Source: Fusobacterium mortiferum ATCC 9817 | GTDB taxonomy: Bacteria; Fusobacteriota; Fusobacteriia; Fusobacteriales; Fusobacteriaceae | DNA: 64,000 nucleotides | Reading direction: 5' to 3' | Assembly: GCF_000158195.2 (NCBI RefSeq) | Contig: NZ_GL987994.1 | Span: 430,343-494,342 of the forward strand | Shown here: piece after piece, positions 1,922 through 61,913 of the stretch | Position numbering within the stretch: the first letter of the stretch is position 1 | How the letters are laid out: every line of letters starts with the position of its first letter | Position numbers and translations under genes: made by a program | The notes under the pieces: generated by a model | Told to the model about the DNA's origin: nothing | The model's input: only the letters and a program-made list of their open reading frames with translations | The model's database searches: none

Positions 1922-2716
1922 CTATAAAAAACTCTCCAAAAGTTTTTTTTCTACTTCTCTAAGTGGAGTATAATCTTTTATATTTTCTATCATATATTTT
2001 AATTTTCCTAAGACTTTTTTCTTATTAGATATATCTATATTCTCTACTAATTTTAGGGAAGATAAAATTTCCAATCCTTCAAGGCTTTCTAAAAGATTTT
2101 TATTAGATTTTAAAATCTCTTTTATCTCCTTAGCTTCTCCTTCATATTCACTAACTTTTTCATATATCTCTGTATTATCTCTAAATTTTACCATATATTG
2201 TATGAAAATATAGAAAATATTTTCATTGTATTCAGACATAAGTTTATTTAAAGCTAATACCATAAGAGGTTTTATATTGTTAGTTCCTATTAGAGCAAAA
2301 TTAGAAGAGATTTTAAAAAATTCTTTCCTATCTCTTAAGAATAGCTCTTTTCCATATCTTTTTGCAAACTCAAGATTTCCATTAAAAAGAGTTTTAATAT
2401 AGTTAGTCTTTACTTTTTCTATATCCAAACTAGAATATCTTTCAATTTTGTCTAAATTTTGCCTCTCTTTTATATCACAAGAGTATAGTAACTCTTCTAC
2501 AAAAAGGTTATTATCATTTAAAAAAGCTATTACTGGAAGAGCTATACTTCCTTTTTTTCTTTTTAGATTTCCATTTGTATCAATAGTGATATATGCTCTT
2601 TTATCTAAAAATTGAGCACATTCACTCAAAACTTCTATCTTACCTTGACTTTCTAAAAGATTGAAAAGTTCACTGGCTTTCTTTTCTTTTATTATATTTA
2701 GCATATCACATTGCAT
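1922..2716 (-). CDS. Conserved hypothetical protein, helical, soluble
   Basis: A 264-aa protein I cannot assign. It has no signal peptide or clear membrane segment, is Lys/Glu/Leu-rich and is predicted mostly helical. An N-terminal segment reads like a short beta-rich patch (AYITIDTNGN), followed by helical repeats. The start at 2716 has GGAGG 11 bases upstream and overlaps the 3' end of lpxK by 11 bases; an in-frame ATG at 2704 is an alternative. Its position between lpxK and a regulatory EIIA domain suggests co-expression, but no function follows from that. Confidence 0.7.
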   Translation of the reverse strand: MQCDMLNIIKEKKASELFNLLESQGKIEVLSECAQFLDKRAYITIDTNGNLKRKKGSIALPVIAFLNDNNLFVEELLYSCDIKERQNLDKIERYSSLDIEKVKTNYIKTLFNGNLEFAKRYGKELFLRDRKEFFKISSNFALIGTNNIKPLMVLALNKLMSEYNENIFYIFIQYMVKFRDNTEIYEKVSEYEGEAKEIKEILKSNKNLLESLEGLEILSSLKLVENIDISNKKKVLGKLKYMIENIKDYTPLREVEKKLLESFL

Positions 2717-3728
2717 TATTTATATTTCCTCCAATTCCTTTTAAACAATTATCCTCTAAAACTGTAAACTCTATTTTTAAGACAAAGAAATTTTCCATAG
2801 GTATATCAGTAGGAAGTTTTACTAAGTCTTTTTCAGTCATTATTATAAATGAAGCTTTCATACTATCAGCACGTCTTTGTATAAGTTCGATATCTTTTCT
2901 TTTAAAATTATGATGATCCATAAAATCTACTCTTTCAATATATGAAGGCTCTAATGAGATCACTGTTTTTTCAAAATTTAAAGGGTTAGCTAATCCAGAA
3001 AATAGTAAAACTCTTTTTCCTTTTACCCAGAAAAGAGGTTTTTGGTTTCCTTTTAAATCACAAAGAGATGTAACACCATGCTTTGCTATAGAAACCTCTT
3101 TTCCTAATTTCTTTTTAAGATATTTTTTTATTCTCTCAACTTCTCTTTCACTTACTAAATCAGATTTTGTTATAATAAATTCAGAAGCTCTTCTTGCTCC
3201 TTTTTTAAAATCTTCACGGAGCATTCCTTTAGGAAGAACCTCTCCCCAACCAAATGGATTAGTAGCATCTATTAAAACAATATCTCTATCTCTATAAAGC
3301 TTTCTATGTTGAAATCCATCATCTAAAACAATGGTATCTACACCAAAATGTTTTTTAGCAAACATACAACCTTTATATCTATTTGAACTGACAACAATGG
3401 GAACTTTTAAATTAAGAGCATGTATAAATGGTTCATCTCCACTCTCTCTAGCAGTAGCAAAAATTTCATATCCATCACTTACTAAAAGAGGCTCTCTTTT
3501 TCTCTTTCCTCTATATCCTCTTGAAACAACAGCTACTTTTCTTCCCATTTTTTGTAATCTTTTTACAAAATATTGTACAGCGGGAGTTTTACCAGTTCCT
3601 CCTACTGTGATGTTACCTATACAGATAATCTCTACTCCCTCTACCCTCCTTATAGGAAGAATTCTCTTATCATAGAGAAAGTTCCTTAAAGATGTGATGA
3701 GGTAATATATATATGCTAATATCCTCAT
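2706..3728 (-). CDS. lpxK: Tetraacyldisaccharide 4'-kinase
   Basis: Phosphorylates the 4' position of the lipid A disaccharide precursor at the inner face of the cytoplasmic membrane. The P-loop GGTGKTP lies near residues 43-49, followed by the family segment DDGFQHRKLYRDRDIVLID (around residue 135). The N-terminus (YIYYLITSLRNFLYD) is a likely membrane-association helix. Length is 340 aa, normal. It shows the organism makes lipid A and so has an outer membrane, although many other genes here look clostridial. Downstream genes overlap, so it sits inside the operon. Confidence 0.95.
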   Translation of the reverse strand: MRILAYIYYLITSLRNFLYDKRILPIRRVEGVEIICIGNITVGGTGKTPAVQYFVKRLQKMGRKVAVVSRGYRGKRKREPLLVSDGYEIFATARESGDEPFIHALNLKVPIVVSSNRYKGCMFAKKHFGVDTIVLDDGFQHRKLYRDRDIVLIDATNPFGWGEVLPKGMLREDFKKGARRASEFIITKSDLVSEREVERIKKYLKKKLGKEVSIAKHGVTSLCDLKGNQKPLFWVKGKRVLLFSGLANPLNFEKTVISLEPSYIERVDFMDHHNFKRKDIELIQRRADSMKASFIIMTEKDLVKLPTDIPMENFFVLKIEFTVLEDNCLKGIGGNINNAM

Positions 3729-30856: not shown

Positions 30857-30926
30857 ATATTGATTTTTTTAATATAATCTAGTAGAATAAAACGGGAAAG
30901 AAGAAAGAGCAACAGGGGTGAGAAAA

Positions 30927-33198
30927 TTGGCAAAGGCAGTAGAGAAAAAAAACTTAGTAATAGTTGAATCGCCTGCAAAGGCTAAAACCATTGAAAAAAT
31001 CTTGGGGAAGACATTTCAAGTAGTAGCATCTTTTGGACATGTAAGAGATTTACCAAAAAGTAAATTAGGAGTTGATATAGAAAATAACTTTACACCTTCA
31101 TACTCTACGATTAAAGGTAAAGGAGAGGTAATTAAAAATTTAAAAGCTTTAGCTAAAAAATCAGATAAAGTATATCTAGCTTCCGACCCTGATAGAGAAG
31201 GAGAAGCAATAGCTTGGCATATAGCTCATGCACTGAAATTAGATGAGAATGATGCTAATAGAATAGAGTTTAACGAAATAACTGAGCATGCAATAAAAGA
31301 TTCTATTACTCATCCTAGAAAAATAGATATGGATAAAGTAAATGCTCAGCAAGCTAGACGTATTTTAGATAGATTAGTGGGATATGGTATAAGTTCATTA
31401 CTATGGAAAAGCGTTGCTTCTAATACTAGTGCTGGAAGAGTTCAATCAGTTGCACTAAAACTTGTTTGTGATTTAGAGCAGGAGATAAAGAAATTTATTC
31501 CAGTAAAATTTTGGGAAGTAAAAGGAGATTTTAGTGATAATTTAAAACTTTCACTCTATAAAGTGGAAAATAAAAAAATAGATAAACTCACAGATGAAGG
31601 TATTGTAAAAGAGAATAAAAAAAATAGAAAAGAAAGAGTTTGATATTACAGAAGCGAAGGTCACTAAAAGAACTAAGAACTCTCCTCTTCCATTAAAAAC
31701 TAGTACATTACAGCAATTAGCTTCATCATATTTAGGTTTTTCAGCTTCAAAAACAATGAGAATAGCTCAGGGATTATATGAAGGAATAGATGTAAATGGA
31801 ATTCATAAAGGGCTTATTACTTATATGAGAACTGACTCAACAAGAATTTCTGAAGATGCACAAGAAATGGCAAAAAACTATATACTTGAAAACTTTGGAA
31901 AAGAGTATTTAGGTGTAAAGAAAGAAAGTAAGAGTAAACAAAAAATTCAGGATGCCCATGAGGCAATTCGTCCAACAGATATTAATCTTGCTCCAGATAG
32001 TTTAAGTAATTCATTAGATAAAGATCAACTAAAGCTATATAAATTAATATGGGATAGATTTTTAATCTCTCAATTAGCACCGATGAAATATGAACAATTT
32101 GAACTAGTAGCTACTTATGATAAGTTTGATTTTAGAGGAACAATCAATAAAATAATTTTTGATGGATATTATAAAATTTTTAAAGAGGAAGAGGATTTAC
32201 CACTTGGAGATTTTCCAGATATAAAAGTAGGAGATAAAACTAAATTGGAAAAACTTCATATAAAAGAGGATTTTACAAAACCACCTTCAAGGTTTACAGA
32301 ATCATCTCTTGTAAAAAAATTAGAAGCTGAAGGGATAGGAAGACCATCTACTTATGCTACTATAATAGAAACATTGAAAAAAAGAGAGTATGTAAAGATA
32401 GAGGGAAAAAGTTTTATACCAACAGAATTAGGATTTGAAATCGAAGAATCTTTAGATAAAAACTTTCCTAATATAATGAATGTAAAATTTACAGCTGAAA
32501 TGGAAAATGAATTAGATGAGATAGCTGATGGAGAAAAGGACTGGGTAAAACTTCTTTCAGATTTTTATAAAGAGTTGAAAGAGTATATAGATAAATTTGC
32601 CAAAAAAGTAGAAGAGGAATCTAATCGTATTGTTGAATCAGATGTCCCTTGCTCTTGTGGAAAAGGTAATATGATTTTAAAAACAGGAAGATTTGGAAGA
32701 TACTTAGCTTGTCCACATGTAGATGAAGAAACAGGATGTCAAGAGAAAATATCTTTAAAAGGAATAGAGATACCTGCTGAAGATATAAAAAATGGAAAAA
32801 TTTTTGTGAAAAATAAAGTAGAAGAATTGGTAAAAGCTAAGCAAGGAAAACCAACAGATGTAAAAACAGAAAATGGTGATAGATATCTTCTAAAAACAGG
32901 AAGGTTTGGAAGTTATTTAGAGAGTGAAAAATACTCTGAAGATAATCTAAGAATGCCATTACCACCGGAGATAAGAAAAGCTCTAGCTAATAATCAAGTT
33001 ACAGAAAAAGATGGGGTAGTATTAATTAATGCTGATCTATCTAAATTGCTAGCTGAAGATGAAAAAATACTGAAAGAAGCTGGAGTTTGTGAAAAGTGTG
33101 GAAGACCATTTAAAATTGGTAGAGGTAGATGGGGAAAATTCTTAGCTTGTACAGGATATCCAGAGTGTAAGAATATTAGAAAAATAGAGAAAAAATAA
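30927..33198 (+). pseudogene. topA: DNA topoisomerase I, reading frame broken at an A run
   Basis: Type IA topoisomerase relaxing negative supercoils. The first frame (to 31643) holds the Toprim domain: [31 protein letters not shown]. It then ends in [11 protein letters not shown]. The second frame is open from about 31629 ([11 protein letters not shown]...) to 33198 and carries the active-site YMRTDSTRIS and two C-terminal zinc-finger repeats (CSCGKGN..., CEKCGRPF...). The break is at an eight-A run, 31617-31624; seven As would restore one 750-residue protein. It may be a sequence error, a true mutation, or slippage. TTG 30927 with AGGGGTGAG upstream is the likely start. Confidence 0.9.
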
Positions 33199-57534: not shown

Positions 57535-58875
57535 CTACTCTTCAGTTGTTTCAGTATTGAGTTCTTTATGAGCTAAAGTCAATTTTACTTTAGCAATTCT
57601 TTTATCTTTCACAGATAAAACTTCTAGAATAACATTATTATACTCCAATACAATTTTTTCCTTTTCATTTGGAACTCTTTCTAGCTCTCCCATAATAAAT
57701 CCAGAAAGGGTATCGTAGTTATCAGAATAAAGATTTAAACCTAATTCATAGTTAAGAGTATCAAGGGAGAAAAGTCCATCTACAAGATAAATATTTTCTC
57801 CAATAGGAGTTAGTTTTGGTTCTTTATTCTCATACTCCTCTTCAATAGAACCAACAATCTCTTCAATTAAATCTTCCATAGTAACTATTCCAGAAAAACC
57901 ACCATACTCATCTATGATAATAGACATAAATATCTTTGAAGCTTGCATCTCTTTGAATAAAATATCTATTTTCTTAGTTTCAGGGATAAAATATGGTTTT
58001 CTCATTATAGAACGAACATCGACATTTTCAAAGCCTTTTTTTCTAGCTTCTAAAATAAAATCTTTGATAAAAAGAACACCGACAATATTATCTATCTCCC
58101 CATCATATATAGGAATTCTTGAATGTTTTTTAGTTAAAAACTCATCAAGATACTCATCTAATGGAGTATTGATATCAATCATATAGGTATCTGTTCTTGG
58201 AGTCATAACCTCTTTTGCATATTTATTATCAAAAGATAGTACAGATGTAATCATATCCTTTTCTGTCTTATTAAAAACTCCGTGTATTTGTCCAACTTCT
58301 AATAGAGATTTTATCTCTTCTTCAGATACCTGTTCTTCAACATTATCAATTTTAAATCCAAGTATACGTAAAATTATATTTGTAGAAACTGATAATAATT
58401 TGATAAAAGGGAAAGTAAGCTTTGCTATGATATATATTGGTCTTATAGCAAACATACTTATTGCTTCTGCCTTGTGTAAGGCTATCCTTTTAGGAACTAA
58501 CTCTCCAAATACAAGAGTAAAATAAGATAGTGTTATGGTAACGATTATAATAGAAATCTCCTTAGTGTAAGGAAGATTAAAAGCAACTAATCTCTTACTC
58601 AATATCTCAGCAAAACCTGTTGCTGCAGAAGCACTGGCAAAGAATCCAGATAGAGTTATAGCAACTTGAATAGTTGATAAAAAATTAGTTGGCTCAGCTA
58701 AGACTTTCTGTATGAGTTTAGCTGTCTTGTTACCATTTTCTGCAAGTAGATTGATTTTGTTCTTGTTAATAGAAACCATAGCTATTTCTGTACAAGCAAA
58801 AAAAGCATTTGTCATAGTCAAAAAGACTAAAAATAAAAGATTTAAAAAAAGATTAAATTGGGGTCCCGTATCCAT
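57535..58875 (-). CDS. CNNM/CorC-HlyC-type membrane transporter
   Basis: 446-aa protein of the family linked to magnesium/cobalt export and once called hemolysin-like. N-terminal DUF21/CNNM membrane domain with about four helices (LFLNLLFLVFLTMTNAFFACTEIAMVS onward; key start FFACTEIAM), two CBS domains at about 210-340 (MTPRTDTYMID..., GVLFIKDFI) and a C-terminal CorC_HlyC domain (LVDGLFSLDTLNYELG). It follows the osmolyte ATPase by 26 bases, so it probably belongs to the same c-di-AMP-riboswitch transcript. Confidence 0.9.
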   Translation of the reverse strand: MDTGPQFNLFLNLLFLVFLTMTNAFFACTEIAMVSINKNKINLLAENGNKTAKLIQKVLAEPTNFLSTIQVAITLSGFFASASAATGFAEILSKRLVAFNLPYTKEISIIIVTITLSYFTLVFGELVPKRIALHKAEAISMFAIRPIYIIAKLTFPFIKLLSVSTNIILRILGFKIDNVEEQVSEEEIKSLLEVGQIHGVFNKTEKDMITSVLSFDNKYAKEVMTPRTDTYMIDINTPLDEYLDEFLTKKHSRIPIYDGEIDNIVGVLFIKDFILEARKKGFENVDVRSIMRKPYFIPETKKIDILFKEMQASKIFMSIIIDEYGGFSGIVTMEDLIEEIVGSIEEEYENKEPKLTPIGENIYLVDGLFSLDTLNYELGLNLYSDNYDTLSGFIMGELERVPNEKEKIVLEYNNVILEVLSVKDKRIAKVKLTLAHKELNTETTEE

Positions 58876-58901
58876 AAATAAATCTCCTCCTTATAAATAT
58901 T

Positions 58902-60023
58902 TTAATTGACTGTGATATCAAATTGTTGACTTAATGTAGTTACTAGACTAGTTTTAGTAATAATTCCTCTTAAAATTCCATTTTCATCTACTACTGGTAA
59001 ACTAGATAATTTATTTTCATTTACTTCTTTTAAAACATCTATTATAGAGTTTTCTGGTCCAGTAGTAAACTCTGGAGTTTCTAATATCTCTCTTACAGTT
59101 TTATAATGATCTTTCTCTTTTTGTATAAGCTTACCAGTTATTATTCCTTCAAATTTTCCTTTTCTGTCAATTACAAGAAGCGAGTCAACTCTTTCATGTC
59201 TCATTTTTCTTACACACTTAAATAGACTCATCTCAGCAGAACAAGTGATAGGGTTGTCAAGCATAATATCTTTTACTTTTATATACTCTGGAGATGACCA
59301 AATTCTATTTTTTCCAACAAAATTACTTACGAAATCATTTGCTGGATTTTTTAAAATAGTTTCAGGATCATCATGTTGAATGACTTTACCAGTACCCATT
59401 ATACATATTTTATCAGCAATCTTAACCGCCTCATCCATATCATGACTAACAAATATTATAGTCTTTTTATACTGAGTTTGGATATTGATTAGCTCATCTT
59501 GGAGCTGAGAACGAGTAATAGGGTCAAGAGCTGAAAATGGCTCGTCCATAAGAATTATATCAGGATTTGTCATAAAAGCTCTGGCTATACCAACTCTTTG
59601 TTGCTGTCCACCACTTAGCTGTTTAGGGTATCTATCAGCAAATTTTTCATAGGGTAATCCCACCATATCCATAAGCTCTTTTACTCTTTCTTCTCTTTCT
59701 AACTCTGGAACTTTTTCTAACTTAGCTACTAATTCGATATTTTCTTTTATTGTCATATGAGGGAAAAGACCTGTCTGTTGGATAACATATCCTATTCCTC
59801 TTCTTAAATCAATAATATTTTTTTTAGAAATATCCTCTCCATCTATAAGGATTTTTCCAGATGTAGGTTTGATAAGTCCATTTATCATTTTTAGTGTAGT
59901 AGTTTTTCCACAACCAGATGGACCTACAAAAACTGTAATACTTTTATCTTCTATTTTTAAATTTATATCGTGTAAAACTATATTATTTTTAAATATTTTA
60001 TTTACTCCTATAAATTCTATCAT
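58902..60023 (-). CDS. Osmoprotectant ABC transporter ATPase with CBS domains (OpuCA/ProV-like)
   Basis: ATP-binding subunit (373 aa) of a glycine-betaine/carnitine/choline importer. Walker A GPSGCGKTTTLKMINGL near residue 36, Q-loop YVIQQTGLFPHMT, signature LSGGQQQRVGIAR, Walker B IILMDEPFSALDP, H-loop VSHDMDEAVK. Two C-terminal CBS domains (about 250-370) are the osmo-sensing module of OpuA/OpuC ATPases. GGAGG upstream. The permease and binding domain are encoded just upstream. Confidence 0.93.
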   Translation of the reverse strand: MIEFIGVNKIFKNNIVLHDINLKIEDKSITVFVGPSGCGKTTTLKMINGLIKPTSGKILIDGEDISKKNIIDLRRGIGYVIQQTGLFPHMTIKENIELVAKLEKVPELEREERVKELMDMVGLPYEKFADRYPKQLSGGQQQRVGIARAFMTNPDIILMDEPFSALDPITRSQLQDELINIQTQYKKTIIFVSHDMDEAVKIADKICIMGTGKVIQHDDPETILKNPANDFVSNFVGKNRIWSSPEYIKVKDIMLDNPITCSAEMSLFKCVRKMRHERVDSLLVIDRKGKFEGIITGKLIQKEKDHYKTVREILETPEFTTGPENSIIDVLKEVNENKLSSLPVVDENGILRGIITKTSLVTTLSQQFDITVN

Positions 60024-60049
60024 TTCATACCTCCTTTTAATATCTAAAA

Positions 60050-60976
60050 TTATTTAGATATTAGACCTCTTTCGATTAAAAACTCATGAGCTACTTCTTG
60101 AGGTTCTCTTTTGTATGTATCTACTTGATTATTTAATTCTCTCATTACTTCATCTGTTAAAACATCAACAAGTGAATCAGCTATATTTTTTAACTCAGGA
60201 TATTTATTAGCAATATCTTCTCTTATTAATGGTACAGCATGGTAAGGTAAGAAAAACTCTTTATCATCATCTAAAACTACTAAATTATATGTAGATATTA
60301 ATCCATCAGTAGCAAAGGCATCTATTACATCACTCTCTTTATTAGCAATAGCCTGATAACGAAGAGCTCCATCTATAGATAGAGAGTTTTTAAATTTCAG
60401 TCCTGGATAAGCTTCTAAAAGTCCAGGTAACCCATCATGTTTATTTGTAAATTCAAATGTAGATGAGATAGTTAATTGTGGAGCAACTTTAATTAAATCA
60501 CTGATATTTTCTAAGTTATATTTATCAGCAGTTTCTTTTCTAACAGCTAATCTGTATGTATTATTAGCTGAAATCTCCTTTCCAACTAATACATCATACT
60601 TCTCTTCTATCTCTTTTTTTGATATAGAATAAACATCAGAAGATTTAACATTTTCAGCTATAGGGTTATGCTTTAACATATCAGCAAACATAGTTCCAGT
60701 ATATTCCATATACATATCTACTTCTCCTTTATTTAAAGCACCAAAAATAACTTGAGTTCCTCCTAAGGCTAACTTTCTATTAACTTTGATATCTGTTTTA
60801 TCTTCAATTAAATCTGCTAACATATTACCAAGAAGAATTTGTTCTGTATAATCTTTACTTGCAATAGTAACTACTTTTTCTTGTGGAGCTATAAAGTTTT
60901 TAACAATATTCTTTCCACTAGAAAATAAGATTAAAAAAACAGCAAGAGTTAAAATTAGTTTATGTAAGAAAGGGAT
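60050..60976 (-). CDS. Osmoprotectant-binding domain (OpuCC/ProX-like), no normal start codon
   Basis: Substrate-binding protein of the OpuAC/QAT family. Open from 60976 with a hydrophobic segment (LILTLAVFLILFSSG), then VVTIASKDYTEQILLGNMLADLIEDK and the ligand site region GGTQVIFGALNKGEVDMYMEYTGT. It ends with PQEVAHEFLIERGLISK. There is no ATG, GTG or TTG upstream of 60823, yet the domain clearly begins about 50 residues earlier. It has no lipobox Cys. It fits the second half of a fused permease-binding protein, one base out of frame with 60955-61629. Confidence 0.85.
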   Translation of the reverse strand: MPFLHKLILTLAVFLILFSSGKNIVKNFIAPQEKVVTIASKDYTEQILLGNMLADLIEDKTDIKVNRKLALGGTQVIFGALNKGEVDMYMEYTGTMFADMLKHNPIAENVKSSDVYSISKKEIEEKYDVLVGKEISANNTYRLAVRKETADKYNLENISDLIKVAPQLTISSTFEFTNKHDGLPGLLEAYPGLKFKNSLSIDGALRYQAIANKESDVIDAFATDGLISTYNLVVLDDDKEFFLPYHAVPLIREDIANKYPELKNIADSLVDVLTDEVMRELNNQVDTYKREPQEVAHEFLIERGLISK

Positions 60977-61629
60977 TTTTTATTTTCCTCCTCTCCACTA
61001 ACTATTCCTTTAGGAACAACTATTTTTTCTATAATAGCTGCTGTCCAGTCAATAAATAGAGCCAATATACAAGCTGGAATAGCTCCAGCTAAAATTTGAT
61101 ATGTATTGGCTGTTCTTATTCCAGAGAATACTAAAAATCCTAATCCACCAGCTCCTACAAAGGCAGCAATAGTCATAAGTCCAACAGCTGTAACAGCAGA
61201 GATACGTACACCTGCCATTATAACAGGAAGAGCCATTGGGATTTGAATTTTAAAAAGTATTTGTAATTTTGTAAGTCCAATTCCTTCAGCTGCTTCTATC
61301 ATCTGTGGGTTTATTCCTTCAATACTTGTATAAGTATTTTTTATAATAGGTAGTAAAGAGTAAAGTACTACCATAAAGATAGATGGCATAACTCCAATAC
61401 CTAAAAAAGGAATAAGAAAACCTAAGAGTGCCATACTTGGAATAGCTTGAATAGTATTAGCAATTCCCATAACTGTTTTATTTATTTTTTTAAAATGACT
61501 TATTAAAATCCCCATGGGAACTCCAATAAGAATAGCTACAAGTACAGATATCAGTGTAAGATTTATATGTTCTACTAAAAGAGATATAATCTGAGCTCGT
61601 TCTTGTATAATATAAGTAAAAAAATCCAT
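60955..61629 (-). CDS. Osmoprotectant ABC permease (OpuCB/ProW-like)
   Basis: Membrane subunit, 224 aa, about six helices. Family segments: HINLTLISVLVAILIGVPMGILI in part (VLVAILIGVPMGI), NTIQAIPSMALLGFLIP, EAAEGIGLTKLQILFKIQIP (EAA loop) and MTIAAFVGAGGLGFLVFSGI. Start ATG 61629 has AGGAGG upstream; a TTG nine codons earlier is unlikely. It ends GEEENKKSLSYIN; just before, an A6 run (60976-60981) lies where a -1 shift would join it to the binding domain. Confidence 0.92.
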   Translation of the reverse strand: MDFFTYIIQERAQIISLLVEHINLTLISVLVAILIGVPMGILISHFKKINKTVMGIANTIQAIPSMALLGFLIPFLGIGVMPSIFMVVLYSLLPIIKNTYTSIEGINPQMIEAAEGIGLTKLQILFKIQIPMALPVIMAGVRISAVTAVGLMTIAAFVGAGGLGFLVFSGIRTANTYQILAGAIPACILALFIDWTAAIIEKIVVPKGIVSGEEENKKSLSYIN

Positions 61630-61654
61630 AAGTAAACCTCCTAAAAAATTGTAC

Positions 61655-61686
61655 AAAAAAACACCAGGCTAGAGTCATGGTGTTTT
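61655..61686 (-). terminator. Riboswitch-controlled terminator
   Basis: On the minus strand AAACACCA, loop, TGGTGTTT and a run of T lie between the aptamer and the permease. The loop sequence AGCCT is complementary to AGGCT at the 3' strand of aptamer P1, a plausible antiterminator. Confidence 0.82.
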
Positions 61687-61713
61687 AATTTGTAAAATTA
61701 AAAATATAACAAA

Positions 61714-61825
61714 ATAAAGCCTCAACTCTTTTCAATGCTGACGAGGTTAGCTGCCGGACTCGGATTGAAAAGTATCCTATTCCATAAAGGAAATTCGCCC
61801 CAAAAAAGTGGGTCCCCCGCTTTAT
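61714..61825 (-). promoter_or_regulatory. Cyclic di-AMP riboswitch (ydaO-yuaA class)
   Basis: The minus strand contains, in order, GGGGGACCCA, TGGGGCGAAT, GGAATAGGATAC, CCGAGTCCGGCAGCTAACC and TCGTCAGC, the conserved blocks of the ydaO aptamer. P1 closes as ATAAAGC (61825-61819) with GCTTTAT (61720-61714). A terminator follows, so ligand binding should turn expression off. It precedes the osmolyte transporter, a known regulon of this class. No protein is encoded here. Confidence 0.92.
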
Positions 61826-61913
61826 ATCATAATAAAGATATAAATTAAGCAATTTGCACATGTACATTATACAAGATTTTTTATAAAGAGTCAAATTTAA
61901 AGAAAAAATAATT

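Follow-up and report, generated by a model that had tools for sequence, protein, structure and literature searches.

Riboswitches of the ydaO/yuaA class (RF00379) sense c-di-AMP and have osmolyte and K+ transport as their standard targets (PMC9960051), and members had previously been predicted in Fusobacteria, among other phyla, upstream of K+ transporter genes (PMC6488665). The full ydaO aptamer binds two c-di-AMP molecules in two pseudo-symmetric pockets (PMC5393176, PMC9481103), and the riboswitch located before kdpFABC of B. thuringiensis has been measured to be an OFF switch that acts by termination (PMC6488665). C-di-AMP also acts on the transporters themselves: OpuA is inhibited at its pair of CBS domains, such that transport is blocked, and OpuC ATPases bind c-di-AMP as well (PMC10243994). 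Here we describe a member of this class in a 64,000 nt stretch of Fusobacterium mortiferum DNA (the window), together with a half-size relative elsewhere in the same genome. Given that occurrence in Fusobacteria was already predicted in print, the class, its targets and the phylum were all known beforehand, and the window element is a new RF00379 member with a standard target, ordinary in kind. The initial annotation had implied novelty in a diderm anaerobe; the diderm host stands, since the window carries an LpxK gene (2706-3728), but the novelty is weakened by these earlier reports.

A full-length aptamer followed by an intrinsic terminator

An Rfam cmscan of the whole window identified an RF00379 aptamer at 61721-61861 on the minus strand (95.4 bits, E 2.8e-21; gathering cut-off 38 bits), with all 134 model positions (1-134) aligned by the covariance model and no second above-threshold Rfam match anywhere in the window. 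The sole other family at or near this site, a CRISPR-repeat match on the opposite strand, was rejected at 17.6 bits versus a cut-off of 35. In the Rfam alignment, P1 (61736-61851) is formed by UGCU (61851-61848) with AGCA (61739-61736), the AU-rich P2 hairpin (61821-61844) by UUUAUAUC and GAUAUAAA, and the core helix (61741-61820), which encloses P3, P4 and P5, by GCGGGG (61820-61815) with CCUCGU (61746-61741); the invariant strands GGGGGACCCA and GCAGCUAACCUCG are both present. In the crystallized ydaO RNA, CUCCUUCG can pair with CGAAGGAG (sequence from PMC5393176). At the corresponding position in the window (61728-61772), CUUUUCAA (61772-61765) in the P5 loop can pair with UUGAAAAG (61735-61728) in the 3´ tail to form a pseudoknot of eight pairs, five of which are changed on both sides relative to the crystallized RNA with pairing kept. 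Directly upstream of the aptamer, also on the minus strand, is a promoter-like site (TTGACT-17 nt-TATAAT, 61866-61894), assigned by consensus match only, with 11 of 12 positions matching.

The initial annotation had called a ydaO-class riboswitch on this strand, followed by a terminator, and the covariance-model search proposed there scored far above threshold. Its interval, 61655-61825, contains the terminator and some three quarters of the aptamer but lacks the 5´ strand of P1 as well as that of P2 (61844-61837 for the latter), such that the start needs 36 nt more upstream.

The intrinsic terminator, AAAACACCA-(11)-UGGUGUUUU-UUU, spans 61655-61686 on the minus strand, with arms AAAACACCA and TGGTGTTTT, an 11 nt loop and a T run ending at 61655. 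A simple terminator scan skipped this hairpin because its loop exceeds the scanner maximum of 8 nt, though a terminator was found at the corresponding place, between the aptamer and the Shine-Dalgarno sequence, in all 14 riboswitch copies of the genus. The Shine-Dalgarno sequence of the window locus (AGGAGG, 61637-61642) lies 7 nt upstream of the ATG at 61629. We also noted a putative antiterminator (61671-61729), in which AGAGUUGAGG (61729-61720) would pair with CCAUGACUCU (61680-61671) at a predicted -10.0 kcal/mol. Each of the 14 genus copies has a comparable pairing between tail and terminator arm, the longest being nine unbroken pairs between AGAGUUGUG and CACAGCUCU at locus L016 (-13.2 kcal/mol). 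In single sequences these energies are modestly better than those of shuffled tails (fractions 0.007 to 0.41), and a cross-pairing test within the genus gave a weak signal, with pairing to a copy's own arm (-8.7) barely ahead of cross pairing (-8.25).

Collectively, these features make it very probable that the locus is a canonical c-di-AMP (ydaO/yuaA) riboswitch that switches transcription of an osmolyte-import operon OFF; this operon comprises opu permease and binding protein genes, an ATPase with CBS domains and a CNNM gene. The aptamer, terminator and pseudoknot pairing can be read from the sequence, as can the promoter-like site, the target genes and the genes for c-di-AMP synthesis and breakdown; from these we infer ligand binding, the OFF direction, mutually exclusive pseudoknot and antiterminator pairing, and control through the CBS domains. 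At high c-di-AMP levels, two molecules would stabilize the aptamer, and the pseudoknot would retain the tail UUGAAAAG, keeping AGAGUUGAGG from the terminator arm; the arm, now free, would form the 61686-61655 hairpin and transcription would end. Upon a drop in c-di-AMP, as when K+ is scarce or cells face osmotic stress, the terminator arm would instead be occupied by the tail, allowing transcription of the operon. As the encoded ATPase has CBS domains of the kind used by c-di-AMP on OpuA and OpuC, c-di-AMP control may be doubled.

The opu operon, c-di-AMP enzymes and distribution of the riboswitch

The genes downstream of the aptamer, annotated initially as OpuC-like and CorC-like, were borne out by domain matches across 57535-61629 on the minus strand: an Opu permease part (BPD_transp_1, 60955-61629), an Opu substrate-binding part (OpuAC, PF04069, 60050-60955) that is frameshifted relative to the permease at an A6 run, an Opu ATPase of the proV family with two CBS domains (58902-60023), and, after a 26 nt gap, a CNNM/CorC-like membrane protein (57535-58875), with which the apparent operon ends. 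Among solved structures, the closest to the ATPase are chains of 7ahc/7ahd, an OpuA-type ATPase of the L. lactis OpuA series. Five relative loci encode the permease and binding protein as a single fused chain of about 525 aa. Four relative loci extend beyond the ATPase gene, and in two of them (L025 and L026, and not L023 or L027) CNNM comes next. Elsewhere in the window, on the plus strand, a topA-like gene, recognized by its N-terminal sequence (30918-31643 and 31756-33198), is frame-split at an A8 run near 31618.

The host genome appears equipped to make and degrade c-di-AMP. The search for a diadenylate cyclase, suggested in the initial annotation, returned one DAC-domain protein, which is DisA (425 bits to NF010009, the DisA equivalog, cut-off 201), encoded directly after a RadA-like gene. 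The genome also encodes a PgpH-type 7TM-HD phosphodiesterase and an NrnA-like DHH protein that scores below the NCBI cut-off for NrnA itself. A second full-length RF00379 copy (91.1 bits) is located upstream of an operon (L004:3021-9425, minus strand) encoding a sensor kinase, a response regulator, TrkA/TrkA/TrkH and a KdpD-like, non-kinase protein with the KdpD sensor domain; kdpABC is divergently oriented (L004:10373-14665, plus strand). Counterpart operons of relatives were observed to comprise kinase, regulators and KdpD (L028) or KdpD alone (L029).

Among 98 genomes of the phylum, all 12 from the window's genus have RF00379 matches above cut-off, with opu or kdp/trk genes downstream; the other 86 gave no match at that level. 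A DAC-domain protein is encoded in 94 of the 98. Because the cyclase is near-universal and the full riboswitch is limited to a single genus-level clade, other c-di-AMP receptors are presumably in use across most of the phylum.

These observations bear on three alternative readings of the locus. The break between the permease and the binding protein, which lie in different frames at the A6 run where relatives have the single chain, could mean that the transporter is a pseudogene and that an intact riboswitch governs a dead operon. We consider this unlikely, given that matching splits at A runs affect topA (30918-33198) and, outside the window, kdpB (L004), as would fit homopolymer errors in the assembly, and that the remaining opu coding sequence is intact (about 61-89% identity to relatives). 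With opu, topA and kdpB all split at A runs, a homopolymer sequencing error is the likely explanation for the opu frameshift.

It is also conceivable, though very unlikely, that the aptamer is a c-di-AMP riboswitch that turns expression ON or that controls translation initiation instead of termination. Expression platforms do differ among members, with the C. glutamicum nlpC riboswitch reported to act on translation (PMC9960051). Nevertheless, the position of the terminator in all 14 genus copies, the location of the Shine-Dalgarno sequence outside the switching helices proposed for the window element, and the OFF behavior measured for the terminator-bearing B. thuringiensis kdpFABC relative (PMC6488665) all argue against this reading. 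Drift of the aptamer to the point that c-di-AMP binding is lost is extremely improbable given the 95.4-bit score, the conserved core strands and the compensatory pseudoknot changes relative to the crystallized RNA. The canonical OFF switch remains the preferred reading.

A half-size relative before nhaC genes

Five weak RF00379 matches in four genomes of a sister genus (g5), scoring 25.8-30.5 bits, correspond to a shortened form of the aptamer; sister-genus copies scored 25.8-31.6 bits in all, below the cut-off of 38. A pattern search found eight half-size copies in six of the seven g5 genomes surveyed, with no control matches, and a model built from five of these eight (R1) recovered two more, one from the remaining g5 genome and one from the genome of the window, bringing the total to ten copies in eight genomes. 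The copies of the window's genome and of genome G035 were not reported by the RF00379 search. The leader in the window's genome is on the minus strand of contig C2 at about 873002-873155 (L050:2972-3125; R1 match C2:873155-873046) and comes with a separate promoter-like site (TTGACT-17-TATAAT) and a terminator of 10 pairs; the others are at loci L017, L018, L019, L020, L022, L047, L048 (two copies) and L049. All ten half-size copies precede NhaC-family genes, and the NhaC gene after the window-genome copy is 75% identical to the g5 query. In genomes G033 and G032 (L033, L048), nhaC and its half-size leader are doubled in tandem, about 1.8-1.9 kb apart. Upon searching 84,980 species genomes with the strict half-size pattern, we found a single Fusobacterium MAG with two copies (NZ_JARHZE010000106.1), in a collection that may lack close relatives of the window's genome, such that the form may also occur elsewhere.

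In the Rfam alignment, the half-size form has 38 model positions deleted inside P3, which removes P4 and P5, and it is without the pseudoknot partner in the P5 loop and the 3´ strand of P1. CGCUU(A/G)G, the AU-rich P2, GCGGGGG(A/G)CCCA and GCUAACCUCGUC are retained. The core strands GCGGGGGA.CCCA and GCUAACCUCGUC are kept in all ten copies with single-base departures only, namely GGGGGGCCC in one copy and GCGAGG in three. Most g5 copies have CGG..CCG as their shortened P3, compared with AAGAG..CUCUU in the window's genome and AUGAACA..UGUUCAU in G035, and in our alignment of the form (A6) all five P3 columns are changed on both sides. Over the whole half-size structure, nine pairs are changed on both sides, compared to a mean of 3.3 for shuffled alignments and with none of 500 shuffles as high, and sliding the partners destroys the signal. 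Because the model used to fit this alignment already included P3, the P3 covariation is not independent of it. As an independent check, the hairpins of the window's genome and G035 were found flush against GCUAA with five and seven unbroken pairs, respectively (shuffles as good, 9% and 6%).

In all three clades, the leader downstream of the half-size element contains sequence that could pair with the core strand GGGGG(A/G)CCCA. The fraction of shuffles as good was 0.04 in the window's genome, 0.11 in G035 and 0.04-0.22 in g5, compared to 0.16-0.99 for canonical controls, and this complementarity would fit a switch. Model R2 in turn recovers the full aptamer of the window (E 7.9e-5), and these weak reciprocal matches of RF00379 and R2 are consistent with shared descent of the half-size form and the full aptamer. 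The half-size form differs from RF00379 in two of the features tested, scoring below cut-off and having neither P4 and P5 nor the pseudoknot, and by these measures it is a relative of the family and not a member. Assignment of the leader to an Na+, Li+ or other known class was rejected after no Rfam match above cut-off was obtained at L017-L020 and L022; at L047, L049 and L050, a search at E up to 2 gave just sub-threshold RF00379 and implausible families.

The title of one ydaO structure paper describes the aptamer as internally pseudo-dimeric, and the ligands are reported in that study to bridge both halves. If so, a lone half could not bind c-di-AMP in the usual way and would have to dimerize, bind differently or sense another ligand. 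The identity of the downstream gene does not fix the ligand, since some members of the NhaC family are putative lysine transporters controlled by lysine riboswitches (PMC5584792). We give even weight for and against the idea that, in the window's genome and the sister genus, a half-size ydaO descendant functionally regulates an NhaC-family antiporter. In this view, the single half would either sense c-di-AMP, through one site or by dimerization of the RNA, or have come to recognize a different ligand, for instance an ion.

Significance and comparison with known systems

The window locus extends c-di-AMP control of osmolyte import, as a prediction from sequence, to a diderm Fusobacterium relative. 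Its host carries a complete set of components, comprising a cyclase, a phosphodiesterase, an importer with CBS domains and two full riboswitches at osmolyte and K+ genes, and the genus offers a compact test of whether c-di-AMP osmoregulation in diderms is the same. The half-size variant, if working, matters more than the window element: a natural one-half aptamer would show what a single half binds and whether a symmetric aptamer can be reduced or re-aimed.

Compared to RF00379 ydaO/yuaA riboswitches in general, the window element is alike in its full aptamer, P1-P5, pseudoknot, terminator, osmolyte and K+ targets and associated c-di-AMP enzymes, and unlike in its LpxK-bearing diderm host and its restriction, above cut-off, to one genus-level clade (12/12 genomes, 0/86 others). 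The B. thuringiensis kdpFABC riboswitch (PMC6488665) similarly has an aptamer and then an intrinsic terminator before an uptake system, and the second copy in the window's genome is likewise at a kdp locus, though the operon it precedes is the kinase-regulator-TrkA/TrkH-KdpD one, divergent from kdpABC, and not a kdpFABC operon. With regard to the L. lactis OpuA/BusA and OpuC systems (PMC10243994), the window operon differs in its extra CNNM gene and the split frame in the assembly, whereas the CBS-bearing ATPase and, in relatives of the locus, the fusion of permease and binding protein are shared.
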